Shown piece by piece: positions 50,047 through 58,223 of a stretch of DNA of 64,000 nt. Source of the stretch: Sphingomonas sp. So64.6b (lineage in GTDB: Bacteria > Pseudomonadota > Alphaproteobacteria > Sphingomonadales > Sphingomonadaceae); the NCBI RefSeq assembly GCF_014171475.1, contig NZ_CP048817.1, forward strand, positions 3,224,001 through 3,288,000, in the 5' to 3' direction. Numbering within the stretch: position 1 is the stretch's first letter; each line of letters begins with the position of its first letter. A program made the translations under genes and the position numbers. A model generated the notes under the pieces. It made no database searches, was not told the DNA's origin, and worked only from the letters and a program-made list of their open reading frames with translations.

Positions 50047-50428
50047 CACATTCTTCCAATGGTTAACGAACCGTTACAACCCAAGCCGAGTGTTTGGGTT
50101 CCAACAATTTGATTCTGTCCGGCTGTGCATCCGCTCGGATGAGTCGATGATCTTGACCAGCAATATCGAAAAACGCGCCCTTGCCGCCTGCCGCGATGCG
50201 GACAGGATCGGGAATTGCCGGGCCTAATCGTGCCGCCGGCCCCCCGTCGGCTTTGGCGCATTACCAGCCCCCAAGCCGTCACCCCGGACTGGTTCCGGGG
50301 TCCACCGCGCCACACGCTCTGCGCTTCGAGGCACTTGCTGTCGAAAGCCGCCTGGTGGACCCGGCACAAGGCCGGGGTGACGTATAGGGTGAGGAAAGCA
50401 CATACCTACGGCTGAGCGTCGATTGACC
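50047..50428. other. Intergenic region holding a palindromic repeat
   Basis: In this 382-bp region there is no supported gene. The left part probably carries the promoter of the coiled-coil lipoprotein gene; the right part is the inverted repeat listed separately. Confidence 0.55.
50278..50381. repeat. Inverted repeat (GTCACCCCGG type)
   Basis: GTCACCCCGGACTGGTTCCG...GTCCACC pairs imperfectly with GGTGGACCCGGCACAAGGCC...GGGGTGAC. The element is about 104 bp, a common style of intergenic repeat in alphaproteobacteria. Confidence 0.8.
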
Positions 50429-51430
50429 CTACGACGCGAGGCGGCTGCGGTTCAGGTGGAGCGTCACGATCAACCCGCCTTCGGACCAGTCATGATCGAT
50501 CGATCCGCCGAGCTGACCGGAAATGCTGCGCTTGACCAACTGGCTGCCAAAGCCGGCCGCCTTGTCCGGCGCCTCGACGGTCGGGCCGCCCCGCTCCACC
50601 CAGGTCAGGCTGATAATGTCCTCGTCCGTCGCGCTGGACACGTCGAGCGTTCCCGTTTGTTCGGACAGGGCGCCGTATTTCATCGAGTTGGTCGCGAGTT
50701 CATGAATGACCAGCGCAAGGCTGGTTGCCGCTTTCTCGCCCACGCCCATGCGCTCGACCGCGACCCGAATGCGTCCGCTAAAGGCGCCCATATCGTCATA
50801 CGGGGCAAGCAGTACCGAGAACAGATCGCCGAGGAGAGCCGCGCCGCCCTGGCTGTTCGGCAACGGGCGCACCAGGTCATGTGCGCGGCCAAGTGCGGTC
50901 AGGCGCTCGGTCAGGTCGCGCGCCATATCTTCCTTGCTGGCCGCCGATCGTGACGTGATCGCTGTCAAACCCGAGGCGATGGCAAGCAGGTTCTTGACGC
51001 GGTGGCTCATCTCTCCTGCAAGAAGCTCATGACCTTCCTCCGCCTGTTTGCGGCCGGTCACGTCGAGGAAGATGCCGAACATGGTTCGCCCGACGATCCC
51101 GACGTCTTCCCCTTGCCCCCGCGCCGCGATCCAGCGAATTTCTTCGCCGATCAGAATGCGGAAATCGGTTTCGTAGGAACCGAGAACGGCCCGCGTCGCG
51201 GCGAACGCCGCCCGGACGCGGTCCCGATCCGCGGGATGAATATGCGCGGACAATTGCTCGAACGTGACAGCATCGCGCCACGGCAAGCCCCATAACTCGA
51301 AGCCGCGCTCATCCATCGTGAACAGATCGGAATCGACATTCCACGCCCACAGCGCGACCCCGGCCGCCGTCACGGCGAGGTGGAGATGCTCCGGCCGCCA
51401 GGCATGGGGCTTTGCCCCTTCTGAATTCAC
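50429..51430 (-). CDS. PAS-domain sensor histidine kinase, HWE family
   Basis: The 333-residue cytoplasmic kinase has an N-terminal PAS domain (residues 15-130: AAGVALWAWNVDSDLFTMDERGFELWGLP...TMFGIFLDVTGRKQAEE). A phosphoacceptor helix follows (LLAGEMSHRVKNLLAIASGL, His near residue 142), and then an HWE/HisKA-2 ATPase domain with LALVIHELATNSMKYGAL (N box) and LTWVERGGP (the WE motif), then GFGSQLV. It senses an unknown signal, perhaps light, redox or a small molecule through PAS. No response regulator is adjacent. Confidence 0.9.
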   Translation of the reverse strand: MNSEGAKPHAWRPEHLHLAVTAAGVALWAWNVDSDLFTMDERGFELWGLPWRDAVTFEQLSAHIHPADRDRVRAAFAATRAVLGSYETDFRILIGEEIRWIAARGQGEDVGIVGRTMFGIFLDVTGRKQAEEGHELLAGEMSHRVKNLLAIASGLTAITSRSAASKEDMARDLTERLTALGRAHDLVRPLPNSQGGAALLGDLFSVLLAPYDDMGAFSGRIRVAVERMGVGEKAATSLALVIHELATNSMKYGALSEQTGTLDVSSATDEDIISLTWVERGGPTVEAPDKAAGFGSQLVKRSISGQLGGSIDHDWSEGGLIVTLHLNRSRLAS

Positions 51431-51648
51431 GGAATTGTCCTTGCTGACGGTAAAGCGCCACCCTGCATAGGAACTGCCCTGCCATCCGGCAAACGATTGA
51501 CGGGCTCAGGCTGCTGATACAATTCTGACTAACGAGCAGCGATGACACCTCGCTTTGCTCGGCTTCACCAACCCTATACTGCGTACTGAAGAAACCGGAT
51601 TCGCTCGCAAAAACCGGAAACCGCGCAGTTGACTAGCCAAATTTGCCC

Positions 51649-51677
51649 TTGACTTTGATGGTATCAATTGATACCTG
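51649..51677 (+). promoter_or_regulatory. Promoter with embedded palindrome upstream of the toxin-antitoxin-like operon
   Basis: TTGACT at 51649-51654 fits a -35 hexamer, and TACCTG at 51672-51677 a weak -10 at 17-bp spacing. Between them lies the perfect 16-bp palindrome GGTATCAATTGATACC (51660-51675). Its place over the promoter and 49 bases before the first gene suits autorepression by the HTH protein of the operon. Confidence 0.65.
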
Positions 51678-51724
51678 CGAATTTAGGAGGGTAAAGGGGC
51701 AAAAAAATAACGGGGAAGAGGCCA

Positions 51725-52069
51725 GTGAGCCCGGAGATAAGACGCCAATTGATTGAATATTGTGGTTCCTCGCGCACACGAGTGGTCGGCACTTGGCCGG
51801 ACCTTCCATCAAAATGGCGTCCGGACACTGTCAGGACGCCTGATGGATTTGGGATGTTCACCCGAGTCGGCGCGTGGGATTTTATCGGCGAGTGCCTCGA
51901 AGACGAGAATATCCAAATCTATGAAATTTTGCTCGATCGTCCGCCTGGTAAGCGAGCGTGGTACTTCACCGTGCCGGGCCACGATGGCACGATGATTTAT
52001 ATCAAAATTCATTTCGGCCCCTCGAACGTGGTCGGACGCAGCTTCCATATTAGCAATGACGAGAAATGA
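51725..52069 (+). CDS. MqsR-like toxin candidate
   Basis: The 114-residue protein starts at a GTG preceded by GGGGAAGAGG. Its C-half, FTRVGAWDFIGECLEDENIQIYEILLDRPPGKRAWYFTV...MIYIKIHFGPSNVVGRSFHIS, follows the RelE-fold pattern of MqsR mRNA interferases (a late YxKI strand, then a hydrophobic strand ending in SFH/SFK). The first ~35 residues are unlike MqsR. It overlaps the next gene by 14 nt, and that gene encodes an MqsA-like zinc/HTH protein, which supports a toxin assignment. Toxicity is inferred, not shown by the sequence. GC content is below the window average. Confidence 0.6.
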   Translation: MSPEIRRQLIEYCGSSRTRVVGTWPDLPSKWRPDTVRTPDGFGMFTRVGAWDFIGECLEDENIQIYEILLDRPPGKRAWYFTVPGHDGTMIYIKIHFGPSNVVGRSFHISNDEK

Positions 52070-52574
52070 TGTGACTGACATCGTCCCAACAGATGTTTCG
52101 ACAGAGCCGTGCCGGCTTTGCGACGATAGCGTCGCGGCTGCCGGAAACAGAGTCGAGCACTTTGTCTACGGCGATGGCGATGACGCGGTTATGCTACGGG
52201 CAATGATCCCGATTTGGTCATGCATCGCGTGCGGTGGTTCTTATTATGGCGAAGATGCCGAGAAGGCGATGCACAACGCAGTCTGTGATCATCTGGGACG
52301 GCTGCGCCCCGGTGAGATCAAGGCAATTCGTCTCCGGCGCGGCCTCAACCAGATCGAGTTTGGTGACGAAACGGGAATTGGCAGCGCATCTATCAAACGC
52401 TGGGAGAGCGGTTCGCAGATTCAGACAAAGGCCTTCGACAATTTGCTGCGCTACTTCGCCAAGGGCCCATTACCGCTTACCGCGAACAATTTCGGTGAGC
52501 CGGTCTTCCAGACAAACGTAGAGGAGCGTCGCGACGCAGCCGATCATTTTAGCCTCACGGTGTGCACGGGCTGA
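52056..52574 (+). CDS. MqsA-like zinc-ribbon/HTH antitoxin
   Basis: The 172-residue protein has two CxxC pairs (Cys19/Cys22 and Cys56/Cys59) forming a zinc ribbon. A XRE-type HTH follows (RPGEIKAIRLRRGLNQIEFGDETGIGSASIKRWESGSQIQTKAFDNLLRYF, residues 88-138) and then a 35-residue tail. This zinc-N, HTH-C order is that of MqsA/YgiT antitoxins, which neutralise an RNase and repress their operon. It overlaps the toxin candidate upstream by 14 nt and its stop shares a base with the ATPase start (TGATG). The palindrome at 51660-51675 is its likely operator. Confidence 0.78.
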   Translation: MTRNDVTDIVPTDVSTEPCRLCDDSVAAAGNRVEHFVYGDGDDAVMLRAMIPIWSCIACGGSYYGEDAEKAMHNAVCDHLGRLRPGEIKAIRLRRGLNQIEFGDETGIGSASIKRWESGSQIQTKAFDNLLRYFAKGPLPLTANNFGEPVFQTNVEERRDAADHFSLTVCTG

Positions 52575-54403
52575 TGTACACAATCACATTCTACTCATTC
52601 AAAGGCGGCGTCGGACGCACGATGGCGCTTGCCAATGTTGCCGCCATCTTGACGGGCATGGGCCGTCGCGTGCTGGTCGTCGATTTCGATCTCGAAGCCC
52701 CTGGCCTTCCCAGCTACGAACCCTTCCGCGGACTGGAATGCAAAAACGGGGTAGTCGATTTCGTTCATGAATATCTGCGGACCAACATTTCTCCGAATGT
52801 AGGGGCATTCGTTGCTGAAGCCTCGATCGGCGGCAAGCCAATCTGGATCATGCCGGCGGGCAGTCATACTTCCACGGGCTATTCCACTGATCTGAGCACA
52901 ATCGACTGGGTTAGTCTTTATCGCGACCGGTCAGGCTTTCTTCTGATGGAAGACCTCAAGCAGCAATGGGCCGCGTTTGAAGGTCATGGTTTTGATTATG
53001 TCCTGATCGATAGCAGAACTGGTCACACTGATGTCGGCGGAATCTGCACTAGGCAGCTGCCCGACGCCGTGGTGGCGATGTTCGTGCCGACGCGTCAAAA
53101 TTTGGAAGGGCTCGCGCCAATCGTTCGCGCCATAAAAGCGGAGAGCGCTCCTGTCCGAAAGAGGATCATTACGCTTCACTATTGCCCATCGAATGTTCCA
53201 GATATCGACGATGAGAACGATATTCTCAGAGGCCTTCTCCAAGAGGCGAAGACCACACTGGATTACATCTCACCGGCAGCGACGATAAATCATTATAGCC
53301 ACCTGGAGATTCTCGAGCAGAAAATTTTCGCTGTTGCCCATGCAAAGTCGCGCCTCGGCAAGCAATATAGTCAGCTTACTAAGGCGCTCATCGCGGAGAA
53401 TCTTCGAGATCGTGACGGCGCGCTGATCACGCTGGAGCGGCTTCCGGCTCAGTTCGATGCTGCAAGGCGAGAAGGCGATACGAAAGTTGTCGACCGGTTG
53501 AACTCCAAGGCCACAGTCATCCGCAAGAATTTTAGCGACGATGGTGAAATCGCTTTTTCGCTCGCGCGCGCAGCGGATAAAATGATTCGGCCGGAGGAAG
53601 AGATTGCAAGCCTCACGGTTGCGATCGATCAGGGTTTCGAGACCAATTGGGCGCAGCTTCGTCGAGCCTTCGTCTATTCCTCGCTCGGCAGAGACAAGGA
53701 AACGGAGGCGGATTTGAAGGCCGTTATCCTGTCAAAGGATGTCAAGCGACTTGAGGCTACACCAGCGCTCGATTTCCTTCGAACGCTACTCGAAAATGAC
53801 CCCGAGCAGCTTGAGAAGACGTTATTCGAACTCGCGCGGGCGCCCGACCTCGACGATGATCTGCGAGGGCGCATTCTGCAGAATGCCATCCGATCGCGGA
53901 AATGTGCTGAAGACGTTCTGGAGATTGTCACACAATACAGACGCTCGGATGAGGATGCAGGTTCGCGTCTTTTCAATGTTCACGTTTGCGCACTTATAGC
54001 GCTCGGGCGATTTGCCAAGGCGATTGATATTTTGGGTGGTCGCACGAACGTTCTTAAGGCTGGCGACGTGGCTCAGATATTCAATCTGGCTATTGCTGAA
54101 TGGGGCTTGCACGGCGAGGCACCCCGCGACCTGTTCAACGAGGTTAAACTGTTTCTTGAAAGCCGGGCGACGCATGACGCAAATGCCCGGCAGTGCTTCG
54201 CGCTTACTTTGATGGTTTGCGGAGAACGCGAAGCTGCACTTTCCGAATTGCGTGAAGCCCGCCAAGCGATCGCGCCGTTGGTCAGTAGCTTTAGCTGCTG
54301 GCAATACCTTGAGCGGTATGAGGAAGAATTCGAGCAGGACCTGGACGACATGGAAATCGTTTTCCGGTCAGACCAGCCGATCCGGCTTCCAATTTTCAGC
54401 TAA
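52574..54403 (+). CDS. KGGVGR-motif P-loop ATPase with helical-repeat C-terminal region
   Basis: The 609-residue protein begins with a ParA/MinD-type deviant Walker A (SFKGGVGRTMALANVA, residues 8-23), in which the first Lys is the signature residue. VLVVDFDLEAPG (Asp37/Asp39) and a later DYVLIDSRTGHTDVGG (Walker B-like) follow. The ATPase domain ends near residue 280. The remaining ~330 residues are all-helical with TPR-like repeat character (RAADKMIRPEEEIASLTVAI, RRAFVYSSLGRDKETEADLKAVI and so on). Such KGGVGR ATPases occur in accessory and defence-like contexts, but their function is not established. It is coupled (TGATG) to the MqsA-like gene, making a three-gene operon. Confidence 0.82.
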   Translation: MYTITFYSFKGGVGRTMALANVAAILTGMGRRVLVVDFDLEAPGLPSYEPFRGLECKNGVVDFVHEYLRTNISPNVGAFVAEASIGGKPIWIMPAGSHTSTGYSTDLSTIDWVSLYRDRSGFLLMEDLKQQWAAFEGHGFDYVLIDSRTGHTDVGGICTRQLPDAVVAMFVPTRQNLEGLAPIVRAIKAESAPVRKRIITLHYCPSNVPDIDDENDILRGLLQEAKTTLDYISPAATINHYSHLEILEQKIFAVAHAKSRLGKQYSQLTKALIAENLRDRDGALITLERLPAQFDAARREGDTKVVDRLNSKATVIRKNFSDDGEIAFSLARAADKMIRPEEEIASLTVAIDQGFETNWAQLRRAFVYSSLGRDKETEADLKAVILSKDVKRLEATPALDFLRTLLENDPEQLEKTLFELARAPDLDDDLRGRILQNAIRSRKCAEDVLEIVTQYRRSDEDAGSRLFNVHVCALIALGRFAKAIDILGGRTNVLKAGDVAQIFNLAIAEWGLHGEAPRDLFNEVKLFLESRATHDANARQCFALTLMVCGEREAALSELREARQAIAPLVSSFSCWQYLERYEEEFEQDLDDMEIVFRSDQPIRLPIFS

Positions 54404-54410
54404 AAAAAGG

Positions 54411-54436
54411 GCCCAAACCTCTCGGTTTGAGCCCAG
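54411..54436 (-). terminator. Hairpin terminator reading leftward
   Basis: GGGCCCAAACC-TCTC-GGTTTGAGCCC is an 11-bp stem with one mismatch. On the minus strand it is followed by seven T residues, so it ends transcripts coming from the right; on the plus strand there is no T-run. Confidence 0.8.
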
Positions 54437-54459
54437 CCGAATTAGCTCGATATCGTCAC

Positions 54460-54489
54460 TTAATCTTCGGCTGGTTCCTGATAGGACAT
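54460..54489 (-). CDS. Possible nine-residue peptide gene
   Basis: ATG at 54487-54489 is preceded by the strong ribosome site AAGGAGG at 7-nt spacing and reads MSYQEPAED before TAA. A terminator with a seven-T run follows 24 bases on, so ribosome site, short frame and terminator form a compact unit. TATAAA lies about 25 bases upstream as a possible -10, with no clear -35. The peptide matches nothing I know. It could be a true micropeptide, a leader, or a chance frame. Confidence 0.35.
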   Translation of the reverse strand: MSYQEPAED

Positions 54490-54608
54490 ATGCTGGCCTC
54501 CTTGATTCGCTGTTTATATGGCGTGTAAATTAAGAGATTCCTACACCTATCTCACTCGATGCTGACCCACCGGCAAATTTTCTAGCGCATGACAAATTAA
54601 CTTCCAAC

Positions 54609-54875
54609 TCAATACGCGGTTCCCAGCGGAGAGTTGACAGGAGGTAGCCCGCCGCGATCGGCTGGATTGCCGCCGTCGTTGAGCGCCGATATAGAGCCCA
54701 TCGGTATCCGACGGCGCGTCGACTTTGCCACTTGCCCCGGGTTGGCCCGCTTTCCTCGTCTGAAACGACGCTCGACCGGCGGTTTGCCATATCTGCCATG
54801 TGGTCGTGCGATGCCGAGTTCTTCGTCATCAACCACATATTCGGCGCGATTCACATCGCTCTTCGGCCTCTTCAT
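54609..54875 (-). CDS. DUF5681-like protein
   Basis: The 88-residue protein starts at an ATG preceded by GGAGA. Residues 25-45 read PHGRYGKPPVERRFRRGKRAN, close to the GYGKPPxxxRFxxGQSGNPxGRPK motif of DUF5681 proteins, which are common on prophages and other mobile elements. The C-half diverges and ends early compared with the family, so it may be a degraded or short member. It lies on the opposite strand to the three-gene operon, inside the same low-GC island. Confidence 0.55.
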   Translation of the reverse strand: MKRPKSDVNRAEYVVDDEELGIARPHGRYGKPPVERRFRRGKRANPGQVAKSTRRRIPMGSISALNDGGNPADRGGLPPVNSPLGTAY

Positions 54876-55165
54876 GCCTGTTCTCCGGCGTGCCATGTCA
54901 CGCACCAAGAGTGAAAGCCCATTCGATGGACCATTTGAATCGAGCAAGACCGAAAGTGAGCAGCCATGATTTCCACCCCGCCACGTCCCGATTTTCCCGT
55001 AAGCGCCGCGCAAATTTCCCGTTATACCACACCGGTTTTTCGCGTAGTTTTTCCCGTAGCTTCCCGCAGAAAACCCAAAAAAAGCTTTTACCCGCAGGAC
55101 TTCCCGTAGCTGCAGGAATTTGATGACCTCAACAGCGCCAAAATGCGCTGCGACTTCGAAACGGA
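54876..55165. other. Non-coding island end with clustered repeats
   Basis: In this 290-bp segment no gene is supported. Its right half contains the CCCGTA-type repeat cluster listed next. The sequence composition is lower in GC and unlike the flanking operons. Confidence 0.5.
54991..55116. repeat. Cluster of seven TTCCCGTA-like direct repeats
   Basis: TTTCCCGTA-like units have their CCCG at 54996, 55018, 55041 (CGCG), 55053, 55063, 55091 and 55103. The spacings are 22, 23, 12, 10, 28 and 12 bp, near whole or half multiples of a helical turn. All units point the same way. Irregular clusters of short same-direction sites resemble integrase arm-type sites or replication iterons; which of these applies is unknown. 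Confidence 0.6.
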
Positions 55166-55552
55166 TTGAATCCACCGATACAATTCCGCCTGTCCAAAGG
55201 CGAGCCTTTGACGATCGCCGAATCTATCCAGCGCGAATTCGGCATCACCCAGGCCGCGGTGTCGCAGCACCTCCGCGTGCTGCGCGACAATGGTTTTGCC
55301 CGGTCGCGCGTCGATGGTGCGCGCCGCATCTATTCGGTCGATACCGGGCCGTTGCAGGACGTCGATGCCTGGCTCGACCGCTTCCGCGCCTTTTGGGAAC
55401 CGAAGCTCAGCGCGCTCGACACTGAAATCGCGCGCGGCAAGAAGAAGCGGCGCATGGCACAAGCCGATTCAACACCTGCGCCGAGTGATGGCAATGTTGT
55501 GCCTGACGAGTCCTTATCCGGCCCGGCACGCTCTTTCTCATCATTGAAATGA
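55166..55552 (+). pseudogene. ArsR-family regulator lacking its N-terminal helix
   Basis: The recognisable sequence starts abruptly at IQFRLSKGEPLTIAESIQREFGITQAAVSQHLRVLRDNGFARSRVDGARRIYSVD. It continues VDAWLDRFRAFWEPKLSALDTEI, the SdpR-like ArsR subgroup often paired with START/AHSA1-domain proteins. The first ~20 residues of the family (the LADPTRRxIL helix) are missing, and the only in-frame start is a TTG at 55166. No AHSA1 gene follows. It is probably a 5'-truncated remnant at the edge of the accessory island. Confidence 0.65.
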
Positions 55553-55585
55553 CCAAACCGCCCTTCGCTATTGGCGCGGAAACGC

Positions 55586-56062
55586 TCAGCCTTTGGGCGA
55601 CCGCGCGCGCGACAAGGCGGCCTGGGTGACGCGACCACCGCGCTTGACCGTCTTCAGGCAGATCATGGTCGAGGATCGCTGCACGCCGGGCAGCACGACG
55701 ATATCGAAGCGCAGCAGATGGTCGAGGTCGTCGACATCGCGGCACGCCACGCGCAGCACATAATCCGCCTCCCCGGCGATGGTATGGCATTCGAGGATCG
55801 CCGGGGCGGCGAGCACCGCCGCTTCGAACGCTTCGCGCCGGGCGGAATCGATCATCACCTGGACGAACGCGGTCACGCCCAGTTCGAGCCGCGCCGGATC
55901 GATGTCCGCGCGGTAACCGGTGATCACGCCCGCCTCCTCCAGCGCCTGCACCCGGTTCCAGCATGGCGTCTTGGACAGGCCGACACTGTCGGCAAGCGTC
56001 GCATAGGACTGCCGCCCATCGGCCTCCAGTGCACCCAATATCGCATGATCGATCCGGTCCAT
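55586..56062 (-). CDS. kynR: Lrp/AsnC-family regulator of the kynurenine operon (KynR-like)
   Basis: The 158-residue protein has an N-terminal HTH (MDRIDHAILGALEADGRQSYATLADSVGLSKTPCWNRVQALEEAGVITGYRADID). A RAM ligand-binding domain follows (LGVTAFVQVMID...ILECHTIAGEADYVLRVACRDVDDLDHLL). The ATG at 56060-56062 follows GGAGGAG. It is divergent from kynA, and Lrp-type KynR activates kyn genes in response to kynurenine in pseudomonads. By analogy it should control the operon at 56200-63989. AGAAC-AATG-GTTCT at 56162-56175 is a possible binding half in the spacer. Confidence 0.88.
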   Translation of the reverse strand: MDRIDHAILGALEADGRQSYATLADSVGLSKTPCWNRVQALEEAGVITGYRADIDPARLELGVTAFVQVMIDSARREAFEAAVLAAPAILECHTIAGEADYVLRVACRDVDDLDHLLRFDIVVLPGVQRSSTMICLKTVKRGGRVTQAALSRARSPKG

Positions 56063-56199
56063 AACCGCTCCTCCAATCGCCGGCTTCGCAGGACGATGTT
56101 CTGAAAGCACGCAAGATTTCCGGTGATCGTTTTGCAGGATCGCCGATAAGGAGGCAATCGGAGAACAATGGTTCTGCGCTTTCGCGTTACCCATGGTCG

Positions 56200-56991
56200 A
56201 TGAGCGCCCCCATCACCTATCGCAGCTATCTGCGCTTGCCCGACCTGCTGTCCTGCCAGTCGCCCTTGTCCGATGCACATGACGAATTGCTGTTCATCTC
56301 GATCCACCAGGCCTCGGAAATCTGGCTTAAGCTCGCGCTGCACGAACTGCGTGCGGCGCGCGAGCATGTCGTCGCCGACGATCTGCGCCCCGCCTTCAAG
56401 ATGATGTCGCGCGTCGCGCGCATCCAGTCGCAGATGATCCAGAGCTGGGAAGTGCTCGCGACCATGACCCCGGCCGATTACACGCGGATGCGCGACCGGC
56501 TCGGCACCAGTTCGGGTTTCCAGTCCGACCAGTATCGCGAGATGGAATTCATCCTCGGCAACAAGGATGCCGAGATGGTCGCGCTCCATATCGACGAGCC
56601 GGAGGTGCACGCGACGCTGCAGGCCGCACTGGAAGCGCCGAGCCTGTATGACGAGGCGCTGCGCCTGCTCGCCCGGCGCGGCTTTGCAATCCCCGCCGAC
56701 CAGCTCAACCGCGACTTCACCAGGACCTATACCGCATCGGCCGAGGTCGAGCGCGCCTGGGCGACGGTCTATGCGAAGCCGGAGGAATATTGGGACCTGT
56801 ACGAACTCGCCGAGAAGCTCGTCGACATCGAATATCATGTCCAGCTGTGGCGCTTCGGCCATCTCAAGACGGTCGAGCGCGTGATCGGCTTCAAGACCGG
56901 CACCGGCGGCACCGCAGGCGTGCATTATCTCGCCAAGGTGCTGGAAAAGACCTTCTTCCCCGAGCTGCTCACCGTGAGGACGCGTTTGTGA
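56200..56991 (+). CDS. kynA: Tryptophan 2,3-dioxygenase
   Basis: The 263-residue heme enzyme opens the indole ring of tryptophan to give N-formylkynurenine. Signature segments are YLRLPDLLSCQSPLSDAHDELLFISIHQASEIWLKL (with the distal-pocket His), FQSDQYREMEFILGNK and VDIEYHVQLWRFGHLKTVERVIGFKTGTGGTAGVHYL, which holds the proximal heme ligand and substrate loop. Its length is normal. It is the first gene of a tightly coupled operon, and its stop overlaps the kynU GTG start by 4 nt. Confidence 0.96.
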   Translation: MSAPITYRSYLRLPDLLSCQSPLSDAHDELLFISIHQASEIWLKLALHELRAAREHVVADDLRPAFKMMSRVARIQSQMIQSWEVLATMTPADYTRMRDRLGTSSGFQSDQYREMEFILGNKDAEMVALHIDEPEVHATLQAALEAPSLYDEALRLLARRGFAIPADQLNRDFTRTYTASAEVERAWATVYAKPEEYWDLYELAEKLVDIEYHVQLWRFGHLKTVERVIGFKTGTGGTAGVHYLAKVLEKTFFPELLTVRTRL

Positions 56992-58223
56992 GTCTCACGC
57001 TGGCGGAGATGGAGGCGCGAGACGCGGCCGATCCCTTGCGCGCCTGCCGTGACGCGTTCGACCTGCCGCCGGACGAAATCTATCTCGACGGCAATTCGCT
57101 CGGCGCGCTGCCTCATGCGACCGCAGCGCGGGTTGCCGCGACGATACGCGACGAATGGGGCAAGGGCCTGATCCGCAGCTGGAACAGCGCCGACTGGATC
57201 GGCGCGCCGGCGCGGCTCGGCGGCAAGATCGCCAGGATCGTCGGCGCCGCGCCGCATGAAGTGCTGGTCGCGGACTCGACCTCGGTCAATCTCTACAAGC
57301 TGCTCGTCGCCGCGGTGCGGGCGCAGCCGGGCCGGCGCGTGATCCTGTCCGAGCCGGGCAATTTTCCCACCGACCTCTATGTCGCGCAAGGCGTCGCCGC
57401 GACGCTGCCGGATTGCGAACTGCGCACCGTGCCGCGCGACCGGATCATCGATGCGATCGACGAAAGCGTCGCGGTCGTCATGCTCACTCATGTCCATTAC
57501 CAGAGCGGCGCGCGCTTCGACATGGACGCGATCACGCGCGCGGCGCAGGCGAAAGGCGCGCTGATGCTATGGGACCTGAGCCATAGCGTCGGCGCGGTGC
57601 CGGTCGATCTGAGCGCCGCCAATGCCGATCTCGCGGTCGGCTGCGGTTATAAATATCTCAATGGCGGCCCCGGCGCGCCGGCCTTTCTCTATGTCGCGGA
57701 GCGGCATCAAGCCGCGCTGCGCTCACCGCTGTCGGGCTGGATGGGCCATGCCGCGCCGTTCGACTTCACCGACGATTATGCCCCCGGTCCGGGCATCGCC
57801 CGCTTCCTGTGCGGCACACCACCGATCCTCGGTATGGCCGCGCTGGAGGAAGGGGTCGATCTGTTCCTCGCGGTCGATCGCCCGGCCCTGTTCGCCAAGG
57901 GCCAGGCGCTTTGCTCGACCTTTATCGAACTGGTCGAGACGCGTTGCGCCGGCCTTGGCCTGACCGTCGCGACGCCGCGCGACCCCGACGCGCGCGGCAG
58001 CCATGTGTCGCTGCGCCACGCCAATGCCTGGCCAGTGATGCAGGCGCTGATCGCACGCGGCGTGATCGGTGACTTCCGCGCGCCCGATGCGCTGCGCTTC
58101 GGCTTCACCCCGCTCTACACCAGCCATACCGATGTGTGGCACGCGGTCGAGGCGCTGCGTGACATCCTCAGCAGCGGCAGCTGGGACCAGCCCGCCTTTT
58201 ATGTCCGTACGGCGGTGACATGA
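56988..58223 (+). CDS. kynU: Kynureninase
   Basis: The 411-residue PLP-dependent enzyme cleaves kynurenine to anthranilate and alanine. It has IYLDGNSLGALP near the start, DSTSVNLYKLL, the cofactor Asp/His region MLWDLSHSVGAVPVDL and the PLP lysine in GCGYKYLNGGPGAPAF (Lys222). The GTG start at 56988 overlaps the kynA stop, and its stop overlaps the next ATG by 4 nt. No kynB (kynurenine formamidase) lies between kynA and kynU or elsewhere in the window, so that step must be encoded elsewhere or occur by another hydrolase. Confidence 0.96.
   Translation: MSLTLAEMEARDAADPLRACRDAFDLPPDEIYLDGNSLGALPHATAARVAATIRDEWGKGLIRSWNSADWIGAPARLGGKIARIVGAAPHEVLVADSTSVNLYKLLVAAVRAQPGRRVILSEPGNFPTDLYVAQGVAATLPDCELRTVPRDRIIDAIDESVAVVMLTHVHYQSGARFDMDAITRAAQAKGALMLWDLSHSVGAVPVDLSAANADLAVGCGYKYLNGGPGAPAFLYVAERHQAALRSPLSGWMGHAAPFDFTDDYAPGPGIARFLCGTPPILGMAALEEGVDLFLAVDRPALFAKGQALCSTFIELVETRCAGLGLTVATPRDPDARGSHVSLRHANAWPVMQALIARGVIGDFRAPDALRFGFTPLYTSHTDVWHAVEALRDILSSGSWDQPAFYVRTAVT

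Follow-up and report, generated by a model that had tools for sequence, protein, structure and literature searches.

In a 64,000-nt stretch of the genome of Sphingomonas sp. So64.6b (contig NZ_CP048817.1; hereafter the window, meaning this whole stretch), three closely spaced genes that we call A, B and C lie on the + strand (Table 1). The initial annotation of this locus read them as a tripartite operon formed by an MqsR-like toxin candidate, an MqsA-like antitoxin and a ParA-like KGGVGR ATPase, in three overlapping genes of lower GC content. The GC contents of A, B and C (0.53, 0.57 and 0.54, respectively) are all below that of the window (0.647). B and C meet in the sequence TGATG as described, and a 1-nt overlap of these two genes is seen at 8 of 13 loci, the window counted. 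In contrast, the 14-nt overlap between A and B requires the ATG at 52056 and is doubtful, given that the database entry for B (P0122, 167 residues) starts, like most of the aligned relatives, where the GTG at 52071 would; B probably begins at this GTG, which leaves a 1-nt gap after A.

Table 1. Features of the A-B-C locus (positions in the window)
Feature	Position	Strand	Remarks
TTGACT, -35-like box	51649..51654	+	5 nt 5' of the palindrome; sequence
Candidate operator palindrome GGTATCAATTGATACC	51660..51675		Perfect, 16 bp; kept near the A start in 11 of 14 loci
Gene A, MqsR-fold toxin candidate	51725..52069	+	114 residues; GTG start
Gene B, MqsA-family zinc-finger/helix-turn-helix antitoxin	52071..52574	+	GTG preferred, ATG 52056 possible; TIGR03830 match, alignment of relatives
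C-terminal tail of B	52491..52571	+	Roughly the final 27 codons, with core ...EPVFQT...FSL; conserved past the MqsA core
Gene C, KGGVGR-motif ATPase with long C-terminal region	52574..54403	+	609 residues from ATG; NF047398 match, full-length relatives
Terminator-like hairpin for leftward transcription	54409..54434	-	Directly past C; hairpin scan

The predicted structure of A has an MqsR-like fold, in agreement with the initial annotation, which had proposed a structural comparison and would have been contradicted by an unrelated fold. No Pfam family matches A, and among its relatives (a set of nine members, A included) the sole match is Tad8, in one member with E 0.12; A is MqsR-like and not assignable to PF15723. 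Sequence searches with A in Pfam, NCBIfam, PADLOC and PDB gave nothing useful, and as the only query in protein space A retrieved one fragment. A match to A alone in a viral contig (L038) spans 17 residues, with neither B nor C there, and was left unused. In profile comparisons, A gave P 0.035 with the MqsR-like toxins of loci L044-L048 and P 0.57 with the small protein of the alternative pair described below. The toxins of L044-L048 are encoded upstream of MqsA-like helix-turn-helix (HTH) proteins and have no significant Pfam match (a weak VAPB_antitox match in one of the five); in L044-L047 the HTH protein has a long additional C-terminal part. The toxin gene of the viral contig L054 (7122-7460) is broken by a stop, with B and C intact, which reflects either decay or a sequencing error.

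B passes the cut-off of the MqsA family TIGR03830 of NCBIfam (64.7 bits, cut-off 61.8) and stays under that of Pfam PF15731 (22.9, cut-off 30). It includes two CxxC pairs and an HTH domain (HTH_3); in the numbering of P0122, C14 and C17 are near-invariant and C51 and C54 invariant among 10 relatives. The NCBIfam match stops at residue 141 of the 172-residue (ATG) form of B, and past this MqsA core the relatives of B have a common tail, PxFRTxI...FxL, which a regular expression recognizes in 17 of 22 B proteins. A C-terminal extension on the antitoxin, a feature of toxin-antitoxin-chaperone (TAC) systems, is present in B.

C scores 165.3 bits with NF047398 (KGGVGR-motif variant AAA ATPase; cut-off 90) and E 1.2e-27 with the PADLOC model of the candidate system PDC-M28B; it also matches ParA/MinD-type ATPase models and belongs to that superfamily. 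Canonical ParA/MinD proteins have a deviant Walker A motif, KGGxxK[ST], with a second lysine, whereas the P-loop is KGGVGR[ST] in each of the 17 listed full-length C sequences; since arginine replaces the second lysine, C may switch slowly instead of working as a fast motor. The helical-repeat tail with which C had been credited is not proven: TPR_6 matches C with E 0.065, no TPR model reaches E <= 0.01 for C itself, and at that threshold each TPR model is found in one of 19 aligned members, so that the helical-repeat nature of the C-terminal region is weakly supported. A protein search with C scored at least 8000 candidates and kept at least 6755; the best 120 of these, the window entry included, extend over no less than 95% of the query, and those other than the window entry are 40-57% identical to it. 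Two relatives of the ATPase domain of C were found in defence-like contexts: a distant one in L070 (3989-6193), a KGGVGR ATPase with a TIR domain, and one in L069 (3980-6193), a KGGVGR ATPase behind an HTH gene.

The palindrome upstream of A is perfect, and GGTATCN4GATACC at up to one mismatch has this single match in the 64 kb, with 0.07 expected. Its conservation was scored in 14 loci, namely 13 A-B-C loci plus L050. A palindrome with 0-2 mismatches in 12 positions occurs within 150 bp upstream of A in 10 of them, a level that simple shuffles of the same upstream stretch reach in at most 6 of 2000 cases; an eleventh, in L064, overlaps the chosen start codon of A, and there 55 of 200 shuffles of the whole locus contain at least one such match. 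Every one of the 10 loci with the palindrome has a TTGACA-like box (at most one mismatch) 4-12 nt before it, from which a promoter ahead of A may be deduced. A scan for the sigma-70 consensus found none; the earlier statement that the palindrome is embedded in a promoter was in this respect too strong, and the palindrome itself, unique in the window, stands.

The three-gene order, the second point on which the initial annotation could be checked, is conserved in other genomes. For this analysis a collection of genome contigs (one genome per species, 84,980 species) was scanned by short conserved patterns. The B alignment found 11 loci in these contigs, four with A-B-C (Altererythrobacter, Rhodospirillales, Parvibaculum and Marimonas) and seven with more distant MqsA-like proteins and neither A nor C. 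In viral contigs the C alignment found six loci, four of them with full-length C, all four with A and B upstream. The contig of L055 also encodes a phage portal, a terminase, a major head protein and a DNA methyltransferase, and phage structural genes were likewise identified for L054 (a head protease) and L056 (a tape measure protein). Eight plasmid records match C, five with at least 80% of it: A-B-C is found in Rhizobium phaseoli (twice), R. gallicum and Massilia, and Polymorphobacter has C with another pair. In the four A-bearing records no listed gene covers A, the gene table being incomplete by its own description. Counting the window's own genome, A is present in 2 of 385 genomes of the class, and C at E <= 1e-40 in 3 of 385, one of these with the ATPase domain only. 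Full-length C, again with the own genome counted, is found in 3 of 296 genomes of the order (some match, mostly to the P-loop, in 50 of 296), 3 of 397 of the family and 2 of 398 of the phylum, and in 1 of 25 genomes of a further family, a set centred on a known carrier and not including the window's own. No match to C at E <= 1e-10 was found in 50,697 phage records. From these counts the system is rare, scattered and mobile. The A-B-C count excludes L050, whose contig ends too early to accommodate C, as well as the duplicates L051/L052, H2, G767 and G1206 (G767 and G1206 were equated with the L066 and L067 records by coordinates); L057, L058, L069, L070, L071 and L075, which match mainly the ATPase domain of C, are excluded from the full-length counts.

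In all 12 loci found through C a two-gene cassette precedes it. Four loci with full-length C (L066, L072, L073 and L079) have no relative of A or B beside it, and directly before C they encode instead a small protein and an unrelated HTH protein. L066 is from Sphingomonadales by its record, and the other three are labelled as from the same family as the window. By eye the small protein resembles HicA; searched for HicA/HicB, the pairs of L066, L072 and L073 have no Pfam match, and the pairs of L066 and L076 and the small protein of L072 no NCBIfam match. In the alternative pairs scanned, neither the small nor the HTH protein has a significant family match. TTGAC...GTCAA inverted repeats upstream of the small gene in L066, L072 and L073 constitute another candidate operator. 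A search of viral contigs for the alternative antitoxin of L072 yielded 12 candidate stretches, none confirmed. Relatives of the alternative HTH protein occur in 283 plasmid records, from which L066 and five ATPase-less loci (L076 and L113-L116) were examined; judged by gene content, the five are enterobacterial and phage-plasmid-like. They have no KGGVGR motif near the HTH gene, and their HTH protein stops before any tail. In this group of loci (L076:2195-3058 and L113-L116) a small protein of 74-84 residues, annotated as hypothetical and seen in four of the five, is encoded with the HTH protein, and several pairs adjoin an exonuclease or dnaE gene; the pair has the look of a two-gene toxin-antitoxin family for which the scanned libraries have no model.

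In contrast to these relatives, the four ATPase-linked HTH proteins end in a tail that resembles that of B. With a profile built solely from B tails, the score of the ATPase-linked proteins is matched by 42, 4, 1 and 26 of 2000 shuffles of their own 45-residue stretch, and that of four ATPase-less relatives by 177, 952, 1305 and 625 of 2000 (the fifth had no reported score). With whole proteins and the same profile, three of the ATPase-linked four rank first among 37 test proteins (E 0.002, 0.008 and 0.011), and the fourth comes next with E 0.44, near the controls. The tail expression matches the last 45 residues in 4 of 4 ATPase-linked proteins, in 0 of 8 ATPase-less relatives (L049, a weak B match, is not one of them) and in 0 of 25 other MqsA-like HTH proteins, these being the loci with a B-like open reading frame among 29 controls from which the window itself (L085) was left out; shuffled tails alone match in 6-17% of cases. 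In a tree of the ATPase, L066, L072, L073 and L079 form one clade (100/100), sister to the window plus Altererythrobacter (97/95), with MqsR-type rows around. The simplest history is a single replacement of the toxin-antitoxin pair whose junction fell within the antitoxin gene and left the tail with the ATPase.

The predicted fold of A and the conserved gene order support the initial interpretation overall, and we regard a tripartite toxin-antitoxin system under the control of C as the probable reading of the locus. Operon order, fold, operator, tail and partner swap are computed; from them we infer ribonuclease activity of A, repression by B, binding of the tail by C and activation by phage, as follows. 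A would be an MqsR-like ribonuclease toxin; B would neutralise it and repress the operon at the GGTATC-N4-GATACC palindrome, and its tail would serve as a peptide by which B docks on the C-terminal region of C. Docked B would stay folded or protected, C thus keeping it working, until infection or stress altered the nucleotide state of C or filled its peptide-binding region; C would then let go, B would be lost, and freed A would stop translation. That C takes the place of a chaperone gains indirect support from the partner swap and the tail common to both pairs. Whether ATPase and tail make up a portable control cassette for different toxin-antitoxin pairs, an ATPase counterpart of chaperone addiction with an origin independent of SecB and a role in phage sensing, we judge to be an evenly balanced question.

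Several results weigh against control by C as proposed. The sequence link between A and MqsR spans only 25 columns (P 0.0012), and no palindrome was found upstream of A in L055, L056 and L067. L056 and L067 have a weak tail. The strict tail expression, drafted after the tails had been seen, fails on 5 of 22 B proteins, one being that of the window (PVFQ). Two of the four shuffle results, 42 and 26 of 2000, are modest, and the tail statistics overstate independence because the expression is post hoc and the four alternative antitoxins are mutually related. The root of the ATPase tree was placed with two distant relatives whose branches are very long. C has no match to SecB, no family model makes it a chaperone, and the arginine in its P-loop makes ATP hydrolysis uncertain.

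A different role of C, which we think unlikely, is that of an effector or sensor part that uses the tail to bind A-B and delivers the toxin to, or activates it at, a target such as the membrane, the nucleoid or a phage structure, without stabilising B. ParA/MinD-type ATPases place cargo on surfaces, the TIR fusion in L070 indicates that the family of C can carry effectors, and the related PADLOC model is that of the candidate system PDC-M28B; however, in both pairs the tail sits on the antitoxin-like protein and not on the toxin. It is still less probable that the operon is a maintenance module of mobile elements, in which toxin-antitoxin addiction is combined with an ATPase that aids partition: several copies are on plasmids and C is of the ParA/MinD superfamily, but some copies, that of the window among them, are chromosomal, the operon has no ParB-type gene, the P-loop differs from that of ParA, and the antitoxin tail is left unexplained. 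An ordinary MqsRA-like pair, followed by an ATPase gene that is merely an unrelated passenger, would fit the relatives without C, both MqsA-like (L043-L049) and of the other type (L076, L113-L116), and is very improbable in view of the constant cassette before C, the tight B/C junction and the tail and ATPase that stay joined through the partner swap.

A toxin-antitoxin system controlled by C has its closest parallel in TAC systems. Across HigBA, MqsRA and HicAB pairs, the antitoxin of a TAC system has a C-terminal extension by which a SecB-like chaperone binds it (PMC5105189); MqsRAC protects against T2 (PMC9519451, PMC10783111), CmdC is released by a phage capsid protein (PMC11618068), and HigA-HigC is disrupted by the lambda tail protein (PMC11980606). 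Like MqsRAC, HigBAC, HicAB-SecB and CmdTAC, the present system has the order toxin, antitoxin, third gene, an antitoxin with a C-terminal extension, and one third gene shared by unrelated toxin-antitoxin families; unlike them, its third gene encodes a KGGVGR ATPase of about 610 residues, and the motif PxFRTxI...FxL is defined only here. By analogy it would on paper follow TAC logic, the third party being an ATPase, and it is yet not a TAC system, given that C is not a SecB-like chaperone. It differs from MqsRA of E. coli in the absence of any Pfam match for A, the additional tail of B and the presence of a third gene. The NF047398 family and PDC-M28B, which C matches, have no toxin-antitoxin role described in the literature searched. 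PtuXYZ (a PtuA-like ATPase, a nuclease and a RelE homologue) is also a three-gene defence-like operon with an ATPase and a BECR-fold toxin (PMC11980606); its ATPase is of another class and it has no MqsA-type antitoxin. In agreement with the earlier statement that no described system of this composition was known, titles and abstract openings in the literature searched include no KGGVGR ATPase in a toxin-antitoxin operon, and the term KGGVGR is found in none of the papers of the library searched.

Regarding the surroundings, the four terminator-like hairpins of the region are not above shuffles (mean 3.3), the window has no tRNA and thus no tRNA-bounded island, and repeats in 50200-56200 revealed no island borders. 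At 55586-58223 of the window, from the translations, a gene for an Lrp-type regulator adjoins those for tryptophan 2,3-dioxygenase and kynureninase. An R. phaseoli copy (L065:7908-13818) adjoins genes for an SbcC-like ATPase, a phosphoesterase and a DUF3320 protein, possibly another defence locus.

If control by C is true, third-party control of toxin-antitoxin systems would not be peculiar to SecB-like chaperones, and a role would be suggested for a large family of ATPases that has only its KGGVGR motif for a name. Among the thousands of relatives of C there may be further partner types, and the short, testable tail motif offers a means of finding more such systems.
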